From positions 1 to 56,801 of the IMG/VR virus record IMGVR_UViG_3300037504_000230: a stretch of 56,801 nt of DNA; one strand, 5' to 3'. The stretch comes from a virus. Position numbers and translations under genes: made by a program. A model generated the notes under the pieces. That model did no database searches. It was given only the letters and a program-made list of their open reading frames with translations, and was not told where the DNA came from. Below are positions 38,673 to 56,801 of the stretch, in pieces; within the stretch, counting starts at the first letter, position 1; each line of letters begins with the position of its first letter.

Positions 38673-39052
38673 TCGTAAAATCCTCCTGATGTATATGCTC
38701 TAGTTTCTCTTCTGTGTTGCCATAGCTCAATACAGTCGTCTGTCACCAGCCAGCGCCCGTGCCCAAATGGACACCACGCAGCCGTGAGGTGCCCGTCACT
38801 GATTTCGCGTTGCACCTGCTGCGGTGACAGCCCGACTAACTCACTAACCTCTGGGACAGTGCGCGCATGGATGCGTGGTTCCCGTAGCCAGCGCGCAACC
38901 GTGCCCTCATTCAATAACTCCAATGTCTCGGCTAGGCGTGCGCCTTCAGACGCTAGCCACACGGCGGCATCCTCATCACCGCGTATGGCCTCGTGGGCCG
39001 CCATAGCGATGGCGAACGCCCACAACTTGCGTGCCGAGATACGGGACCTCAT
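38669..39052 (-). CDS. Helix-turn-helix DNA-binding protein
   Basis: 127 residues from ATG 39052 (a GTG six bases upstream is possible). The C-terminal part (TVPEVSELVGLSPQQVQREISDGHL, then HGRWLVTDDCIELW) is an excisionase/MerR-like winged helix. The N-terminal half is helical. It sits between the initiator and the reductase, and could regulate this cluster. Confidence 0.65.
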   Translation of the reverse strand: MRSRISARKLWAFAIAMAAHEAIRGDEDAAVWLASEGARLAETLELLNEGTVARWLREPRIHARTVPEVSELVGLSPQQVQREISDGHLTAAWCPFGHGRWLVTDDCIELWQHRRETRAYTSGGFYE

Positions 39053-40005
39053 ACCCACCCGTCATCGTCTGCGAACACGGCGGCCCGTTGCTCCCGTTGT
39101 GCCTCACCCTCGCGTTCACGTGCGGCCCGCACACCACGCACGGCGTTGGTAAACGACTGCGGACGGGACGCGGCCCGTTTGTAGTCGCCGCTCCACTTCT
39201 CCATAGCGTGACGCAGTCCGGCCTCTAGGACAGCGAAGTCGCCACCCGCCTCCTTGAATAGCTCCGCCAGCCCTGCCCGCCAGTGTTTAAAGTTGCCGCC
39301 GTTACACTCAAGGCGCGTGACCTTGTGTAGCACCCAGTCGGCGCGCCTAAGGTCAAATGCGTCCACGCCGTCTGTGAGGCGGTAGTCGCGTTTGCCAAGG
39401 TTATAGTCCATCCACGGATCCTCGCCTTGACTACGGGCACCGGCGGCTAGGATGACAGCCTCGCGGGCCTCGGCGTCTGTGAAGTCGACGCGCTCTGGAA
39501 GGTCGGCAGGTGGTAGCGTAGAAGGCCCGAAGGCGTCGTCGAGGTCGTCTTGCGGAGAGGTGGTGTCGGCGGAGGCGGGTGCAATGTGTGCTGTGGTAGT
39601 CTCTGTAGTAGTCTCTGTTAAGGAATCTGAAATTTCTTCAGAATCCATTCTTAAAAATTCTATAAACCGTTTAGTAAATTTTTCATAATCGAGGCGGTAG
39701 TGGACCGTAGGCGCACCGTTAGCCTTCTTTAGCTTGGTTTCTAGTATGCCCATGTCCTTCAGTTGGTCGGAGAACTTACGCACTTTATACTGACTTAGCA
39801 TAAGTTCCTCTTCCCATTCCTCATAGGACTTATAGAACCAACCGGGCGTGCCGCCTCCCTTGTCGCTCCAATAAATCACTTGCGATAGAAACACGCCGCC
39901 TTCTAGATCGCCCATAAACTGACAGAAGGCGCGCGGGACGCCGATGACGTTCTGCTGGCCCGCGAAGTGTGAAATCAATACCTTGGCTGTATCGTAGTTT
40001 CCCAT
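39049..40005 (-). CDS. Phage replication initiator (winged-helix, DnaD-like organiser)
   Basis: 318 residues. A winged-helix N-terminal domain (VFLSQVIYWSDKGGG, WEEELMLSQYKVRKFSDQL, then GILETKLKKANGAPTVHYRL) is typical of phage replisome organisers. A low-complexity linker (120-170) is followed by a helical DnaD-like C-terminal domain. It probably binds the origin and loads the DnaB-type helicase. Confidence 0.75.
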   Translation of the reverse strand: MGNYDTAKVLISHFAGQQNVIGVPRAFCQFMGDLEGGVFLSQVIYWSDKGGGTPGWFYKSYEEWEEELMLSQYKVRKFSDQLKDMGILETKLKKANGAPTVHYRLDYEKFTKRFIEFLRMDSEEISDSLTETTTETTTAHIAPASADTTSPQDDLDDAFGPSTLPPADLPERVDFTDAEAREAVILAAGARSQGEDPWMDYNLGKRDYRLTDGVDAFDLRRADWVLHKVTRLECNGGNFKHWRAGLAELFKEAGGDFAVLEAGLRHAMEKWSGDYKRAASRPQSFTNAVRGVRAAREREGEAQREQRAAVFADDDGWV

Positions 40006-40006
40006 G

Positions 40007-40303
40007 TCATTTACTCCTATCTAGCAACTTATACTTTTCCCATAACTCTAGCCATCGCTCCCTTAGCGATTGGCCCGGCTTACGCGCCTCACAGCACTCT
40101 TTAAAGAAATCCCTAGCATAGAATCTCCCGCGTTGTGGTGGCGGGTATTTTTCCTCTTCGCAGTCTGCGACTAGCGCAATGATGCCAAATAAATCCCGAA
40201 ATGACGGCACCCAAGTTGTGCCATTGTTAAACAGCACTTTAACCCAGTGCTTACCGCCATATTTACCGAATTCCTCTTTCGTGATCTCTTTTATTTTAGC
40301 CAA
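40007..40303 (-). CDS. Small protein upstream of the replication initiator
   Basis: About 98 residues if started at TTG 40303 behind GGGGGAACG. An ATG at 40339 is an alternative but overlaps the methyltransferase gene further. Sequence contains KIKEITKEEFGKYGGKHWVK and a helical end (SLRERWLELWEKYKLL). No family recognised. Confidence 0.55.
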   Translation of the reverse strand: MAKIKEITKEEFGKYGGKHWVKVLFNNGTTWVPSFRDLFGIIALVADCEEEKYPPPQRGRFYARDFFKECCEARKPGQSLRERWLELWEKYKLLDRSK

Positions 40304-41507
40304 TCTCGTTCCCCCACGCACGCCATCCCTCTCGTTCATTCCTGGCGAAAAGTTCAATATATGGGCCTTCGTAGCACCGCTCTATGTCAGCGTAGACACC
40401 ATGCGGTTTCGCGCTATGTCGCGTCACATCGGCCTCTATGATGCTGTCTAGCTTTTCGCTAGGGTGCATACCCGACCCACGCACGCCGATTAAGAGCAAC
40501 TCATGCCGCGTGCGCACAAACCATCCCATACCAGGCGCGCGGCCCTTAACCCACACACGACTGGCCTTATACTCGAATCCCCATGTCTTCATAACTTCCA
40601 AGGCTTCTGGAATTAGTGGTGATGTAGCCCATAAAAAAAGCACGCTGCGATCCATTGCTAAGTCTCGGATCGGTAGCATGCATAATTCCTTTTGACTCAT
40701 AGTTGGGTAGTGACTCTCCGCACTCTGATTGAATCCGCTGTTGCTATATTGCCATGGCGGATCCGCGTACAGTACGCGGTATTTCCCCGTAGGCGGTTCT
40801 GGTTCTGGTATGCTGGCGCGTTGCCGCTTCTGGATTTCACGTTTAGCGCTTGCAGGCGAACGCTTGCCACCCACCACCTCTTTAATGAGGTCTGGATTAT
40901 CGGGCGCGGCCTCGGCTAGTTCTACGGTATCTTTCTTAGTCAGCCTCACATCCGCGCCAAGGATCGCGTCACGCGCCCCCGGCCCTGCGACGCTGGCTAT
41001 ATTGTCCACTGCCTCAGCGTAATCGGCGTCGCGCCTAACCGTGGGCGCGCTCACCCCGGTTTGGGCTGCTATGCGGTCGGCGGTGTGTAAGCTCTGATCA
41101 TTTTGATCAGAGCTTTTCCCCTTCATGGACCCTGCCTCATGTGGGCTTTTCTTTTCCTCAGCATACAACTTCCCCCTTAAGTACGCGCTCTGCTGCGGCG
41201 TCAGGTTCCGTCGCCCCAACTGGTTCAGGATCACCCACCGTTTCGCAGCCTCAAGTCCTGGCAATGAAACGGTAACGATCTGGTAATCAAGCCCATAGTT
41301 TTTCGCAATGCCTAGCCGGTTATGCCCGTCCAGGATCGCGCCGCGCTCACGCCACACCACAAGCGGATCGCGTATACCCTCACTGAGGATGTTCGCCTTT
41401 AACTGCTCATGCTCTGACTTGCGTAAAGGCGGTATAAGTTCCTGAATCTCGGTAACCACGGCGGGGTGATCGCCGAGTACTTCACCGGTGTCCCTGTTGA
41501 CTATCAT
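40296..41507 (-). CDS. ParB domain fused to MT-A70-type adenine methyltransferase
   Basis: 403 residues. Residues 20-110 hold a ParB domain with an intact DGHNR motif (60-64). A helical linker with a helix-turn-helix (TADRIAAQTGVSAPTVRRDADY) follows. From about 240 an MT-A70 domain has YADPPWQYSNSG (DPPW at 249-252) and LFLWATSP. It would methylate adenine N6 in DNA at sites bound by the ParB/HTH region, for protection or for replication control. No cognate restriction gene is nearby. Confidence 0.85.
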   Translation of the reverse strand: MIVNRDTGEVLGDHPAVVTEIQELIPPLRKSEHEQLKANILSEGIRDPLVVWRERGAILDGHNRLGIAKNYGLDYQIVTVSLPGLEAAKRWVILNQLGRRNLTPQQSAYLRGKLYAEEKKSPHEAGSMKGKSSDQNDQSLHTADRIAAQTGVSAPTVRRDADYAEAVDNIASVAGPGARDAILGADVRLTKKDTVELAEAAPDNPDLIKEVVGGKRSPASAKREIQKRQRASIPEPEPPTGKYRVLYADPPWQYSNSGFNQSAESHYPTMSQKELCMLPIRDLAMDRSVLFLWATSPLIPEALEVMKTWGFEYKASRVWVKGRAPGMGWFVRTRHELLLIGVRGSGMHPSEKLDSIIEADVTRHSAKPHGVYADIERCYEGPYIELFARNEREGWRAWGNEIG

Positions 41508-41863
41508 GCGTCACCCCAATCGTACTGGCCCCATAAAACATCCCATAAATGTGTTTCGTTAATAGCGAGATTAAACACTTCTACTGTCCTCTCGCTCGGA
41601 TCTTCTTTTGAGAGTTCGTTAATTATGCCGTCTGCCCATGCCGAAATATCACTGCCCTTAAAAATCATAATCTCAGGAGCCCCGTCATGGTCTACCGTGG
41701 CTACTACGCAATCACCATCAATCCACTCTCTCTGACTAGGATATCCACCATGGAATTGGAATCTAGCATCATCCAAGTCGCACAGGAACACATCAAACAT
41801 AAGCCTATAATTCTCCCTCAGTGAGTCTAAGTCTTTAAGATTCAAGTCTTTAGGCCATAACAT
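41504..41863 (-). CDS. Protein of unknown function under a structured leader
   Basis: 119 residues if started at ATG 41863, which has GAGGAGG upstream. An upstream extension to 41995 is open but crosses the inverted-repeat region and has no Shine-Dalgarno. Acidic protein with FQFHGGYPSQREWIDGDCVV and PEIMIFKGSDISAWADGII. First gene after the 42.0 kb leader. No family recognised. Confidence 0.6.
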   Translation of the reverse strand: MLWPKDLNLKDLDSLRENYRLMFDVFLCDLDDARFQFHGGYPSQREWIDGDCVVATVDHDGAPEIMIFKGSDISAWADGIINELSKEDPSERTVEVFNLAINETHLWDVLWGQYDWGDA

Positions 41864-41898
41864 AAATTTACCTACCTCCTCATGCTCATAAACATAAA

Positions 41899-42026
41899 AG
41901 CGCCCACTTTCAGTGAACGGTTTAGCGGCTCGCAGTAGGTTTTTACGCATGTGTTTCGTTGGCGGGACACATGCATATAACCGCAAACCGCCCACTGAAA
42001 AAGGGCGCTTCGTTTTTACCTACTGC
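41899..42026 (-). ncRNA. Pseudoknot-forming leader RNA (candidate riboswitch or regulatory RNA)
   Basis: On the minus strand, arms B (42010-41993 with 41916-41899; 16 of 18 matched), C (41990-41981 with 41928-41919) and D (41974-41967 with 41954-41947) nest. Arm A (42026-42018, GCAGTAGGT) pairs with 41940-41932 (ACCTACTGC), which lies inside that nest, so A crosses B and C. The two copies of the A strand are each flanked by AAAAACG or CGTAAAAA. It lies between a promoter and the start of the 119-residue gene. It does not match a riboswitch class that I recognise. Confidence 0.7.
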
Positions 42027-42078
42027 TGCCTGTTAAATTACCTCGGCGTCAGGGCCGCCACTCCCCTCCACCACCTCT

Positions 42079-42106
42079 ATTGTACCATGACTCTCGAAAT
42101 TGTAAA
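42079..42106 (-). promoter_or_regulatory. Sigma70-type promoter for the structured leader
   Basis: Minus-strand TTTACA (42106-42101), 16-base spacer, TACAAT (42084-42079) with CATGG before the -10. Transcription would begin near 42070 and run into the folded leader. Confidence 0.65.
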
Positions 42107-42114
42107 GGGTGGCA

Positions 42115-42342
42115 TTACACCACCCTAAACGCCCGACGCTTGACGCCCAACCGGAACCGCCTCCCCTCAGCTACCTCGAACGTCGCCTTAGTCGTCATGC
42201 CGTGGCATGACGGACTGCGCTCCAACGACGGCGTCCCATAGCGCTCGCGCATCCTCAGCAGCGCCTCGGCCATGTCGGCTACCGTGCACTGCGACGGGAC
42301 GGCGGTTGCGCCGCCGGGAAAGTCGATGCGGCGGTAGTGCAC
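42115..42342 (-). CDS. Small basic protein of unknown function
   Basis: 75 residues from GTG 42342. The frame stays open upstream towards 42397 without an ATG, so the true start could be a rare codon. Contains CTVADMAEALLRMRERYG and a basic end (FRLGVKRRAFRVV). It ends just before the promoter at 42079. Confidence 0.5.
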   Translation of the reverse strand: MHYRRIDFPGGATAVPSQCTVADMAEALLRMRERYGTPSLERSPSCHGMTTKATFEVAEGRRFRLGVKRRAFRVV

Positions 42343-45292: not shown

Positions 45293-46028
45293 AGCCGTCA
45301 TCCTCGACCTCAGCAATACTCAGTCCCTCGGCCTCTATTGCGCGTAGGCGTTCTAGAGTGTCCGGCGCCCGGTAGCACGCCGGTGGATCGTCGTCCTCGA
45401 TCTTGATCCATCCGATGGCGCCATCGAATTCTGTGTCGCCATCGAATTCTGTGTCGCCATATGGATTCTGCTGGGATACCACACCCACGTGGCCGCTACC
45501 GTATGCGTGTAACTGCTCGCGCGCATACGAGAAGTCGTACTCGTGGATTTCCGCCTCTTCTACGGAGGCGTCAGGGCCATCAAAGTCCTCTGGGAAGTTC
45601 TCCCAAATCCGCTGGAGTAGCGGCGGGAGGTCTCCTATCCAGACGTTGACGGCGAACGGCTCGCCGTCGAGTTCGTCTGACATGCTGACATGAACGCCAG
45701 CGACTGTCGGGTAATCGCGGAGCTCTGGATCCCGCTCCTCGATTACCCGGTAGTCACGGCATCCGCTCATGCCCATGCGGACATCGACGGCGAAGCGGTG
45801 CTCGCGACCCTGGTGGGCCTTTGTGGCCCCATCCGCGAATTCGCAGCCTAGGGCGCTGACGACCGCACGTAAGACGCTCACGTGCGGCGCATTGCCGGTG
45901 AGGCGCTTGACCTTCAGGCGCCCAGACTGCGCCTCAAACGCAACTGCTATGCGGCCTCGCATAAAATAATAGCCCGAATCATCCTCAAACATCTTACCCC
46001 AATTAAAGTGCTTTACGAACCCCTTCAT
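45282..46028 (-). CDS. Protein of unknown function with tandem duplication
   Basis: 248 residues. ATG 46028 has AAGGAGGAATACG upstream. Contains a perfect 18-base tandem repeat (45420-45455) encoding GDTEFDGDTEFDG. The acidic C-terminus ends VEDDGYDA. It follows the first copy of the 79-base repeat. No family recognised. Confidence 0.65.
   Translation of the reverse strand: MKGFVKHFNWGKMFEDDSGYYFMRGRIAVAFEAQSGRLKVKRLTGNAPHVSVLRAVVSALGCEFADGATKAHQGREHRFAVDVRMGMSGCRDYRVIEERDPELRDYPTVAGVHVSMSDELDGEPFAVNVWIGDLPPLLQRIWENFPEDFDGPDASVEEAEIHEYDFSYAREQLHAYGSGHVGVVSQQNPYGDTEFDGDTEFDGAIGWIKIEDDDPPACYRAPDTLERLRAIEAEGLSIAEVEDDGYDA
45420..45455. repeat. 18-base tandem duplication
   Basis: Two perfect copies (45420-45437 and 45438-45455) in frame in the 248-residue gene, adding GDTEFD to the protein. 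Confidence 0.9.
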
Positions 46029-48397: not shown

Positions 48398-48638
48398 GTA
48401 CTGGCGACGTAAGGCGCAGCTATTGGAATTCAGTCTGCGCCTGGCGATTGAGCAATATCTGGAATTGGAACGCCTGGCGCGCGCGGCGGCGGAGCGCATC
48501 TACGCCAACGGGTCTGGCTATGAGGAATTCGACGCGCTGTTGGACTATTTCGCACCGCTAACCGATAAAAGCGGGAGCGTCACAGGCGGTAAAAACGCCG
48601 GTTTAGATGAAAATGACACACACCGTTTTAACGGTTAG
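48387..48638 (+). CDS. Small helical protein
   Basis: 83 residues from ATG 48387 (GGAGGG seven bases upstream), overlapping the previous stop. Helical (YWRRKAQLLEFSLRLAIEQ). Function unknown. Confidence 0.6.
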   Translation: MSSEYWRRKAQLLEFSLRLAIEQYLELERLARAAAERIYANGSGYEEFDALLDYFAPLTDKSGSVTGGKNAGLDENDTHRFNG

Positions 48639-48679
48639 CGGTTAGTGGGTATATTTTTAGCATAAAAGGAGGTGTATTT

Positions 48680-51958: not shown

Positions 51959-53331
51959 AACTCCTCCTCAATGATAAGTTTCCCTTGGAATTTGATACTA
52001 AATACCCTCTTGCTTACCTCACCTCTTTCATATGCGCCGATGTCTGGCGCTGCGCTACGCTGCCGCCCCCGGATGTCATCGCGCGGCATGTGCGCCGAAT
52101 CCGCCATGCCTAATGCTGCGCTCGCAGGGCCCGGCCTACCGCACTCGGCTAGCGCAAGGAATGCCTCGCGTATTGTACTGTATCCTCCGGCAAATCCGTT
52201 GCCCAGCCAGCGCGGGACGGCAAGACTATCCGGGTCCGGCAATTGCGGATCGTCGATAACGCGGCTGGCGTCGTCACCCGCCTCTAGGAACGCGCTGTCG
52301 CTAGTCGGGAATGGCTGGCCGCTATTATAGAATAGATTATTATCAAAATGCACGGGACTAGCCTCTGACGACGCACAGCACGAGAAGTCGCCCATGTTAC
52401 CAATGGGGTCCGACCAGGTATTGCTACAGATTTCGATGTACTCGCTCGGCTGGTTATCGCCCACCTCGAATATTGAGAAACCAATCTCGCTGGCGTCCAG
52501 TGGCCCGACAACTGTATTGGCACGGATCGTAATATTACGGGATCCACGTACACAGAACGGCGACCGCATTCTGTGACTGCCACACCCTAGGAGTAGATTA
52601 TTCTCAATAATCACGCCGTCAGCCTCCCACTGCGCAATGCCATCCTCGCCGATTAAGATAAAATGCTTATGCGGTGCGCCTTGGTAGCTCATAAATATAT
52701 TGCGCCTAATTTTGATGTCGCGCGGTGGCCCGTCGTGTGGTCCTGAATTTTTAACGACAATAAATGAGTAGGCGTTCGGCGTCTCGCGTCCACTAGCCGC
52801 GTAGTCATTAAAGAAGACGTTGTCTTGGATAGTGACGTTCTCGCTGTTGTGGTTTACGTCGATGTGCTCATCGCTGGGCCCTTGATTATAGAAGATATTG
52901 CTCTCAATAACGATGCTCCGCTGGCCTCGCCCGCCTATTTTCACGAGGTCATTATTGCGCACATCGTGAATTATATTATTGCGCAGCGTGATATCGTTAC
53001 CGGATATGAATACACCAAATGGATTGTCTGAGTCGCCGCGTGTGATTTCGAATCCCTCGACAATGATGTTGCGCGCCTCAGTATATAGGCGCACCACGGC
53101 ATGCTCATAGTCCGTTTCAATCCGCGCGTGATAGGGATGCTCTGCTCTAAGGCGCAGCGGTGCGCTATATGCGCTATTAATCCATAGCGGATCACGGTAT
53201 ATCCCATCTCGCACAATGACAGTCCCGCCGTCCGGGACGAGCGCCTCTGCCGCGTGATCAATCGTTGCCCACGGTGCGTTTGCGCTACCGTCATTATTAT
53301 CATTGCCGTCAGTTGCTACGTAATACGTCAT
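51955..53331 (-). CDS. Right-handed beta-helix protein, tail spike-like
   Basis: 458 residues. TYYVATDGNDNNDGSANAPW and TVIVRDGIYRD are the entry of pectate-lyase-like/DUF1565 beta-helices. A run of steps follows (NIIVEGFEITRG, ITLRNNIIHDV, SIVIESNIFYNQG, NVTIQDNVFFND). It follows the tail fibre and may bind or cut a surface polysaccharide. Catalytic residues cannot be assigned by eye. Confidence 0.75.
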   Translation of the reverse strand: MTYYVATDGNDNNDGSANAPWATIDHAAEALVPDGGTVIVRDGIYRDPLWINSAYSAPLRLRAEHPYHARIETDYEHAVVRLYTEARNIIVEGFEITRGDSDNPFGVFISGNDITLRNNIIHDVRNNDLVKIGGRGQRSIVIESNIFYNQGPSDEHIDVNHNSENVTIQDNVFFNDYAASGRETPNAYSFIVVKNSGPHDGPPRDIKIRRNIFMSYQGAPHKHFILIGEDGIAQWEADGVIIENNLLLGCGSHRMRSPFCVRGSRNITIRANTVVGPLDASEIGFSIFEVGDNQPSEYIEICSNTWSDPIGNMGDFSCCASSEASPVHFDNNLFYNSGQPFPTSDSAFLEAGDDASRVIDDPQLPDPDSLAVPRWLGNGFAGGYSTIREAFLALAECGRPGPASAALGMADSAHMPRDDIRGRQRSAAPDIGAYERGEVSKRVFSIKFQGKLIIEEEL

Positions 53332-56300
53332 GCTGCCTCCAATTCCATAATGCGATTTTCCAGTTGAATAACGCGCTCAAATAGCGCTCTCACGGTATCA
53401 ATTGTGAGTTCGCTGATGCCACGCAACGACATCATATAGTTACCATCACGGCCATAGCTGATTACGCGCGTTTCCTCTAAAATAGGCCGTGCATATTCAA
53501 TGAATTGCCCGAAGCGATCACGCAATCCTGGCACCATTTGCGCACGCAATCCGTGTAGCAGTGCGAGGTCATCGTAGTCATCCCAGTCATTTTCTGTGAC
53601 GCTACCCGCAATGTAGATGTCACCGTTGCCTTTAAAAACTTGGCGTGCATCACCGTTATTTGTGATGGCGACAATATTTGCATTATTACTCAACGCGGCA
53701 ACGCCCGTGCCATTCTTTTTTGAACCAGTTAGCTTGATTGCGCCGTCCGCGCCATCATCATCAGCCGTGCTTTCACTTTGGCTGATTGCTAAAACCGTCA
53801 CGCCTTCCGCAACCGAGTTTCCGCTAATGCCATTAATTTCTAGCCCGCCGCTTGGAATTGCCTTTTCGATTGCGCCGAAAATGTCCGTTTCCGTGCGTGT
53901 CGTGATGCCGTGTGCTACATCGGTTGAGTCGCGGAAGGCTAGAATTTGATCATCGTTTCCTTTCTGGTCGATTGTGATACCGATAGTCATATCTGAGTTG
54001 GAGCCAGAGTTGATATACCAAGAATGATCAATCATAAAGGCATCTTCGCTCTCGTCCCATTTTGCGGTTGGCGTGCCCGTTACATTCACGGTCCACAAAT
54101 TAATGTCGCGGTCAGCAGCGTCGCTACTGAACTCAATACACTGCTCAGATGTATCACCTTGGTCCAGGAAAAGTACCGGTTGCGCGCCGGTGCTAGAGGA
54201 TTGATCGACGTGGAGCTGGCCAGATGGCGATGTTCCGCCGCCGAGTATTATGTCGCCATTGGGGTCGAATAATGCTGTGATCGTTCCTGCACTTCCGCGC
54301 TTTATAATTAAATCACGCGCTGCCAAATCTGATTCGCGATATGTAATTACAAGGTCCTCATCAGAATCAGTAATTATTGACGCATCTGTACTCCCTGCTC
54401 TTGTGAATAATATTCCGCGTGAGTTATTGCCGCTAGTGGCCACCTCAATATAATTATCGGTAGTATCAGCATCACCGCCGACTTGAAGCAGGTTGCCTGG
54501 TGTAGCGCCGACACCGGCATAGCCGGATGAATTAATGCGCACAACCTGCGATGTATTGCCCGACTCAATTCTGAATACATCAGTGCCGGTTGTTTGGTCT
54601 CTGATGAAAAAATCATCGCCGATATCCCCACGCATGCCTGCGTACCATTTTTGAGCACTGTCGTTTTCGTACCAAATATAAGATGTTGAATTTGCGCCAG
54701 TCGCCTCAAGCTTCAAAACAACATTTGTGTTTTCTATTTCAAATATCGTTGCTGGCGATGTAGTTCCAACACCAACTCTGGATACATTTGTAATCTCCAA
54801 ATAATCATTAGTAGAGTCAAATTCAATTGTCGGCTCGCCTGCGCCGCCAGTGATTGACGCACCATCCGCCATGTCAATATCGGAGCCGGATAGCACATTG
54901 AGAGAATTGGCCGTCATCGTAAAATCCGCTGCGCCCGCAATCACATACTGGATTGTGTCGTCTGCACTGGCGTGGAGATAGGTATCCGCATCAGTGTCGA
55001 TGATTAAATCGTTGCCATTCAGATCAATATTTGAGCCGCTGGCGCACTCAAATTTGTTGGCTGTGAAAGTAAAATCGGCGGCAGATGCAATCACCACGTC
55101 AATGTCATCGTCGGCATTTGAGATAAAGCCGCTATCATTGTCGTTGTCAAACACGATACTTTGGCCTTGCATTTGTAGTTGTGTTTCAAATACAATATTT
55201 GCGCCAAATGTAGCGCGGAGTACATTATTGGAATATAATTCTATCTCACCCTCTGAGGAATCGAAGATGATATAGGTATCGCCACTCACGCCAACGACGC
55301 CGTCGTCAGGTACAAATAAATCCTCTAGCGTAATTTGTCCGCTGGCGCTGGTTTGCAGGATTGTATCTGTGTCTGTAGTCCCGTCTGAAGTTGTGGTGAT
55401 CGCGTGCGCGTGCGTTGCCGCGCCAACGGTATTAGCCGTGCCGGTCGTGAGTGTCGTCGGCGTGCCTAACGTGAACGTGCGGTTGGCGCTGATGTCACCG
55501 CCGCCTGTAAGCCCATTCCCTGCCGTGAGTGTCACCGAGGTATGGTTGATGTGTTCGTTCGCCACAAACCCCACGAGGCTATCGTGATTGACGGTATCGC
55601 CGCCGCCGCTTTCGTGCGTGCTTGCATGTGCTGGTAAATCGCCGACTTGAATTGCACTTGGAATATAGCGCGTACCATCACTGCGCAGGTATGAACCTGC
55701 GCCGGGGTCGTCGGCGTGAATGATTCCTTTGCCAGTTGGCAAAAGCAAATCGCCCACTTCTATCGTAATATTACCGCCAGATGCAATCGTGAATGATTGT
55801 ACATCATTAGGCCAAAATGCGATATTTGCTGTTGTGCCAGTTACAATATTCAATCCAGCACTTGTGTCGCTATTTGCAAATATTCTAGCTGAATCAGCAA
55901 TGGCGCTTCCGGCTGTAGTGTATCCGGAACTAAAAACATCAACGAGCAATCCTGCCGCATCCGCCAGTAACCTGAGTTGTATTCGTGCCGCCGTGTCGTT
56001 TGTCGCATTCTCGCCTTGTAGAATAGTAGCGGCGTTTTGATCGCGCCGTGCCACAAATATAGATCCTGGCGCAACAATACCTATGCCAAAATTGCAATCG
56101 CTAAAATACGCATAATCCGTTGCGCCGCTGCTATCAAATCCAAGGCGTGCGGTCGCTGCGCTGTTGCCGATCCAGTCTGCATCTTCTACCGTTATGCCGC
56201 TGATACCAGAGAAGGCGAAAGTTCCGGCCGCGTTGACGGTCAGGAGCTCATTGCCGCTTATCCCGAACTCAGTGCCGTCCTCGCCATAGAAGTCCGACGC

Positions 56301-56801
56301 CGTAACGCCGCCGTCGAATTGCCCATTCCCATCACTATCAATCCGCGCGACCTCGGCGCTGCCACTATCAAGTACACGCACACGGTCAGAGCCGCCAGTA
56401 TCGCCGAGGTGCGCATTAATATATCCGCTAGAGGAGTCGAATTCTATCCGCACATCGCCACTGCGTCCAATATACGTATCATCATTCTCCAAAATAAGGT
56501 TGCCGCTGTCGTCGAGGGTGACGGCGCTATCCTGTATCGTATCTGTGCCATCCCAGCGGGCGATACGGTTATCGGTACCGAGACCGGTCAGATTGCTCAC
56601 GGTGGCCCACGAGAGGTTGCCGCCGCCATCCGTGGCCAGGACCTGGTTGGCCGCGCCGTCCACATCGGGTAGCACCCAGATCTGGTCGGCGGTCAGCGCC
56701 GGGGCCTCGAATCCGACATAATTGGAGTTGCCCACATCGTAGAAGCGCAACTCGCTGCCGCCACGCAGTTGCTCATTCCCGTTGAGTATCAGCCCGCCGA
56801 A
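53328..56801 (-). CDS. Tail fibre protein, main part (gene begins at the left end of the window)
   Basis: 1157 residues, open at the right edge and continuous in frame with 216-603 at the left edge. Repetitive beta-structured fibre sequence with many short IEFDSS/DLIIDTD units, SRVGVGTTSPATIFEIEN (a GIGTTSP-type fibre motif) and a C-terminal coiled coil (IDTVRALFERVIQLENRIME). A TTG near 56750 looks like a start only because the gene is cut. Base composition is locally more AT-rich than the rest, suggesting mosaic origin. It probably recognises the host surface. Confidence 0.8.
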   Translation of the reverse strand, partial: FGGLILNGNEQLRGGSELRFYDVGNSNYVGFEAPALTADQIWVLPDVDGAANQVLATDGGGNLSWATVSNLTGLGTDNRIARWDGTDTIQDSAVTLDDSGNLILENDDTYIGRSGDVRIEFDSSSGYINAHLGDTGGSDRVRVLDSGSAEVARIDSDGNGQFDGGVTASDFYGEDGTEFGISGNELLTVNAAGTFAFSGISGITVEDADWIGNSAATARLGFDSSGATDYAYFSDCNFGIGIVAPGSIFVARRDQNAATILQGENATNDTAARIQLRLLADAAGLLVDVFSSGYTTAGSAIADSARIFANSDTSAGLNIVTGTTANIAFWPNDVQSFTIASGGNITIEVGDLLLPTGKGIIHADDPGAGSYLRSDGTRYIPSAIQVGDLPAHASTHESGGGDTVNHDSLVGFVANEHINHTSVTLTAGNGLTGGGDISANRTFTLGTPTTLTTGTANTVGAATHAHAITTTSDGTTDTDTILQTSASGQITLEDLFVPDDGVVGVSGDTYIIFDSSEGEIELYSNNVLRATFGANIVFETQLQMQGQSIVFDNDNDSGFISNADDDIDVVIASAADFTFTANKFECASGSNIDLNGNDLIIDTDADTYLHASADDTIQYVIAGAADFTMTANSLNVLSGSDIDMADGASITGGAGEPTIEFDSTNDYLEITNVSRVGVGTTSPATIFEIENTNVVLKLEATGANSTSYIWYENDSAQKWYAGMRGDIGDDFFIRDQTTGTDVFRIESGNTSQVVRINSSGYAGVGATPGNLLQVGGDADTTDNYIEVATSGNNSRGILFTRAGSTDASIITDSDEDLVITYRESDLAARDLIIKRGSAGTITALFDPNGDIILGGGTSPSGQLHVDQSSSTGAQPVLFLDQGDTSEQCIEFSSDAADRDINLWTVNVTGTPTAKWDESEDAFMIDHSWYINSGSNSDMTIGITIDQKGNDDQILAFRDSTDVAHGITTRTETDIFGAIEKAIPSGGLEINGISGNSVAEGVTVLAISQSESTADDDGADGAIKLTGSKKNGTGVAALSNNANIVAITNNGDARQVFKGNGDIYIAGSVTENDWDDYDDLALLHGLRAQMVPGLRDRFGQFIEYARPILEETRVISYGRDGNYMMSLRGISELTIDTVRALFERVIQLENRIMELEAA
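56587..56801. repeat. 215-base direct terminal repeat, right copy
   Basis: Matches 2-216 with one mismatch (A at 56674). Ends exactly at the window end inside the fibre gene. Confidence 0.9.

Follow-up and report, generated by a model that had tools for sequence, protein, structure and literature searches.

Two interleaved hairpins in the leader of an early phage operon: a possible transcription attenuator

The leader and the genes around it

The window, that is the whole stretch of DNA analysed here, corresponds to a viral record of 56.8 kb, and the leader of interest is found on its minus strand. The upstream operon ends at a terminator-like hairpin recognised by direct reading (GGGTGG-TGTAAT-GCCACCC, 42107-42125, minus strand), which overlaps the stop codon of the ORF at 42115-42342. 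It is followed on the same strand by a sigma70-type promoter at 42079-42106, TTTACA-16-TACAAT with the extended -10 TGG (10 of 12 matches). From this promoter a leader of about 210 nt runs to an orphan gene of 119 residues (41504-41863, minus strand), whose ATG at 41863 is preceded by the Shine-Dalgarno sequence AGGAGG (41875-41880, minus strand). The orphan gene opens an operon that also contains, on the minus strand, a ParB-like/MT-A70 methyltransferase gene (40296-41507) and the gene of a DnaD-like loader (39049-40005). The first-pass annotation placed a pseudoknotted RNA of no recognised class just past the promoter and ahead of the ribosome site of the 119-residue gene, and both boundaries agree with the sequence (TTTACA-16-TGGTACAAT at 42106-42079; GAGGAGG and ATG 41863).

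The 119-residue protein has no homologs in phages, plasmids, viral contigs or genome contigs. The single match, in L082, lies inside an unrelated protein and is a chance one. Nor does the protein match any family, which bears on the question of an RNA- or ssDNA-binding repressor of the T4 gene 32 type, and an AlphaFold model of a 148-residue version is uninformative (pLDDT 37). Its reading frame is open upstream to 42021, through the whole hairpin described below, and the codons of 41864-41950 are coding-like (P ~0.02 given the open frame). None of the upstream starts in this frame is preceded by a Shine-Dalgarno sequence. The protein may have a longer N-terminus, or may have had one ancestrally.

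Over much of 39450-42150, which spans the loader, methyltransferase and orphan genes, the G+C content is 0.43-0.53, compared to about 0.6 in the surroundings; this stretch is possibly an exchanged module. Other long imperfect inverted repeats are found at 48554-48642 and 45702-45755, with arms of 29 and 22 nt. A similar motif (LPDVDGAANQVLATDGGGNLSWAT) is encoded at both ends of the record (1-100 and 53328-56750), indicating that a repetitive gene is interrupted by the ends of the record.

Interleaved arms and competing folds

Along the minus strand the element consists of four arms in the order a-b-a'-b'. Arm a, GCAGTAGGT, lies at 42018-42026 and is complementary to arm a', ACCTACTGC, at 41932-41940. 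Arms b (41979-42011) and b' (41897-41930) are the 5' and 3' halves of a long terminator-like hairpin of 32 bp with one U.U mismatch and one bulge, so that the 9-bp helix a/a' crosses b/b'. An inner hairpin, TATGCATGTGT/ACACATGCGTA (41944-41977), is common to both folds discussed below. Immediately 5' of arm a is the motif TTAACAGGCA (42027-42036), and behind b' is a U-tract, TTTTATGTT (41891-41899), which is weak in the window; most related elements have a U-tract at the same position, and it is strong in most of them. The whole element is about 135 nt long. The helices contain five non-Watson-Crick oppositions, and four of these are G.U when read on the minus strand, which mildly favours an RNA read from this strand over a DNA palindrome.

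The pairing exceeds what shuffled sequences give, in agreement with the earlier description of four arms, one of which crosses others. The minimum free energy (MFE) of the minus strand has a z-score of -5.2, reached by none of 200 shuffles. Of the shuffled sequences, 0.1% contain a perfect 9-bp helix joining the 5' flank to the bulge (P ~0.001), and when the whole element was shuffled 300 times, crossing helices reached at most 6 bp. No Rfam covariance model matches the leader above its gathering score, in line with the proposal that it is of no recognised class. Blastn against phages gave nothing, and a covariance model built from the single sequence retrieved only the leader itself. A pattern of the exact arms, GCAGTAGGT-N-ACCTACTGC, has 20 matches in viral contigs, about the number expected by chance, and none of these has the architecture.

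Nearest-neighbour prediction gives -65.6 kcal/mol for the fold with the long hairpin (fold B) and -58.3 kcal/mol for the fold with a/a' (fold A). Besides a/a', fold A contains the inner hairpin, a short hairpin within arm b and another within arm b', the latter formed by 41919-41901. Fold A is itself unexpectedly stable. When the long stem is forbidden, controls in which the long hairpin is retained with its pairs permuted and the flanks are shuffled have a mean of -41.7 +/- 4.1 kcal/mol (P 0.001 for the real alternative fold). Shuffling only the flanks never matched it (0 of 600), and permuting only the stems did so in 0.3%. In the growing transcript fold A is computed to be the MFE structure until about nt 170 (3' end ~41904) and fold B from nt 175 (~41899), and the predicted barrier along the direct path from A to B is about 29 kcal/mol.

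The linkers between a and b and between a' and b' are 6 and 1 nt. By a geometric estimate, made without a 3D model, linkers this short cannot accommodate both a/a' and a 32-bp b/b' unless a large part of the helices opens. On predicted structure, therefore, a/a' and b/b' look like mutually exclusive, successive folds. Of the pseudoknotted leader suggested earlier, the structured leader RNA and the crossing complementarity are retained, while a standing pseudoknot is not.

Related elements in other phages

Related elements were searched for by architecture only, that is a, b, a' and b' in order. When 1.27 Mb of loci were searched in this way there were three outliers, namely the window and two contigs from the methyltransferase scan. 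A survey anchored at promoters, in contigs picked by proteins related to those of the window and with score and thresholds set after the window was seen, gave 14 of 1,884 promoter-like sites with a score of at least 26, representing 10 distinct believable elements; shuffled sequence downstream of promoters gave 2 of 18,840. The rate is 7.4 per 1,000 at promoters versus 1.05 per 1,000 at random positions, and many of the random matches are the same elements. Five control phages with 356 promoter-like sites had one match at 26, with a weak b arm, and none at 28.

Besides that of the window, believable elements are found in G039 (L012, +4402), G043 (L021, +2307 and +4799; L192, +11031), G044 (L020, +44, +1818 and +3339), G008 (L203, -13001), G007 (L205, +10102) and G003 (L194, +10563), and in contig L035 (-4089). 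L224, L033 and L057 contain believable elements without a clear promoter call. Among 14 tabulated elements b/b' is 19-33 bp, and the linkers are 0-26 nt (a to b) and 0-16 nt (a' to b'). In all 14 a/a' is complete in the MFE structure before b' exists, and in 13 of them b/b' wins at full length. Most related elements have a strong promoter upstream, a U-tract right behind b' and a ribosome site a few nucleotides further on, with no second promoter seen between U-tract and gene; the G003 element and one or more of those in G044 are without a good U-tract. The predicted transcription start coincides with the beginning of arm a in several relatives. Three leaders in G044 (L198, 9006-8877, 10509-10390 and 12283-12160) have in common a second crossing helix formed between the arms, of the GTTAGTGA/TCACTAAC type, and two of them also share the ribosome-site region TTTATAAGGAT.

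The genes behind the elements are diverse. Methyltransferases of the MT-A70 family encoded at 40296-41507 in the window also follow an element of this design in contigs G043, G044 and G039, and in G044 a DnaD-like loader related to the one in the window is also found downstream. Other elements precede HNH/primase, replication proteins, an RNA ligase and tRNA-Met; apart from the methyltransferases and the loader, these names come from reading the translations. The tRNA-Met(CAT) gene (L192 11159-11282, G043), which comes directly behind an interleaved leader, has an intron-like insert of 47 nt and is found only with the intron option of ARAGORN. Directly 5' of the ribosome site of the RNA-ligase-like gene in G043 (L021 2453-2615) there is an almost perfect inverted repeat, roughly 30 bp long, around some 110 nt of further hairpins, with a predicted fold of -90.5 kcal/mol, which could be a second RNA element.

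The arm sequences are unrelated between elements, mostly even within one phage, and the complementarity of both helices is nevertheless retained. Two elements of G043, sharing part of arm b, are the exception. The leaders of the window and of G007 have TTAACAGGCA at the same place before arm a (P 0.004 for the 5' flank) and share a TTTnTGTTTAT stretch after b' (P 0.04), while their arms are not similar (P 0.6); in a hand count five of seven aligned a/a' pairs are changed on both sides. The similarity of the flanks is suggestive of orthology, short of proof. The related elements are too divergent for a formal covariation test of the R-scape type. Lacking conserved arm sequence, the element escapes RNA searches based on homology and is picked up by a search on structure alone.

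A proposed attenuator and its alternatives

In this early operon the leader element may well be a cis-acting transcription attenuator composed of two interleaved hairpins. Rather than a rigid knot, it is probably an on/off leader of a type not recognised so far. It lies downstream of the promoter and upstream of the first gene in the operon, and the predicted energies and order of folding give two exclusive folds, the earlier of which blocks the terminator hairpin. Termination, read-through, the direction of control and the signal are contributed by the model, which would work as follows. After the polymerase leaves the promoter, a would pair with a' first, with b caught in the loop (fold A). 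Once b' is made, the longer b/b' hairpin with its U-tract, an intrinsic terminator (fold B), could form only by breaking a/a'. Whether transcription stops or reads through would then depend on whether a/a' lasts until the U-tract is passed, and the output of the genes behind the leader would be set by whatever frees or occupies arm a or alters the speed of the polymerase. Candidate signals are an RNA acting in trans against arm a, polymerase speed and a factor associated with the polymerase. The free variation of arm a makes it unlikely that a single sequence-specific protein reads all the copies. In most elements a U-tract is followed within a few nucleotides by a ribosome site, with no second promoter, and expression must thus come by read-through. 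Control at the level of transcription is further favoured by the element that has a tRNA, and no ribosome site, behind it.

RNase III acts in phage leaders, and the 32 near-perfect base pairs of the long hairpin might be a site for this enzyme; alternatively, a 5'-terminal a/a' hairpin could protect the transcript, as such hairpins do in other phage leaders and as the position of arm a at the predicted 5' end in several relatives would allow. A role in processing or stability is rather unlikely, as it accounts neither for the interleaving of the arms nor for the surplus stability of fold A nor for the U-tracts behind b'. We consider a translational switch slightly less probable still. Here a' would act as an anti-Shine-Dalgarno on GGTAGGT in fold B and be masked by arm a in fold A. 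GTAGGTAAA is present in arm a and again at the ribosome site, which gives a' two possible partners, and the 20-nt linker makes the pairing sterically possible. However, a 6-bp match of this kind is expected in about 10% of shuffles, enforcing the nested pairing costs 16 kcal/mol relative to the MFE, and no such match was noted in the related leaders, one of which precedes a tRNA. There is a similarly small chance that the promoter, the structured RNA and the terminator make up a stand-alone small RNA gene of about 130-180 nt acting in trans. The layout agrees with this, but a few nucleotides separate the U-tract from the ribosome site of the following gene, with no other promoter seen, the arms differ between copies within the same phage, and a search of the rest of the contig for complementary sites gave nothing clearly above chance and no long targets.

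A genuine H-type pseudoknot, in which both helices are present together and a protein or a ligand is bound, is very improbable. The crossing complementarity is indeed above chance, but the two helices are not expected to coexist in the window, nor in several relatives where linkers of 0-8 nt face stems of 27-33 bp, and a conserved core is lacking along with an Rfam match. The same lack of a match, and of a sequence core evident among elements of the same architecture, speaks against the ribozyme or ligand riboswitch suggested in the first-pass annotation, whose third option, a phage regulatory RNA, is where the element belongs. We see hardly any likelihood that the stretch chiefly represents the beginning of a longer protein-coding gene, with incidental pairing. 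The open frame and its coding-like codons would fit, but they are outweighed by a perfect AGGAGG before ATG 41863 and none at the upstream starts, by the pairing statistics and by the recurrence of the architecture ahead of unrelated genes.

The attenuator proposed here resembles those in the rep leaders of plasmids pIP501, pAMbeta1 and pT181, where a long replication-gene leader has a terminator hairpin decided by competing pairing (for pIP501, PMC4981023). There the trigger is an antisense RNA from the opposite strand, whereas the element described here belongs to a phage and no antisense promoter is seen within the window leader; three relatives have weak candidates. The expression platforms of fluoride and ZTP riboswitches likewise set an early fold against a later terminator, and there the early fold is a pseudoknot and strand displacement takes place during transcription (PMC11077080, PMC10085676). 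Unlike such riboswitches, the phage leader shows no conserved aptamer core, and its two hairpins interlock and share no strand. The put RNA of HK022 is also a cis-acting leader RNA in early phage transcripts, and it suppresses termination (PMC9378689). However, put adopts a specific RNA-polymerase-binding fold and affects terminators farther downstream, while here the terminator is inside the element and arm sequence is free to change; the absence of conserved arm sequence argues against identity with put, as far as sequence comparison goes. The pseudoknot in the T4 gene 32 leader shares the crossing pairing upstream of a ribosome site, but it is about 28 nt, bound by gp32 and translational (PMC535899), compared to about 135 nt and a terminator-like 3' end here. 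No description of the interleaved two-hairpin design was found in the literature searched, where absence carries little weight.

It is quite possible, though more tentative than the reading of the single leader, that the elements form a hitherto undescribed, sequence-independent class of phage attenuators. Two interlocking hairpins would then provide early promoters with a switch that is both topological and kinetic, and each genome would carry several independent copies whose arms drift while staying complementary. If so, the same folding switch would stand ahead of replication, methyltransferase and tRNA/RNA-repair genes in a group of uncultivated phages.
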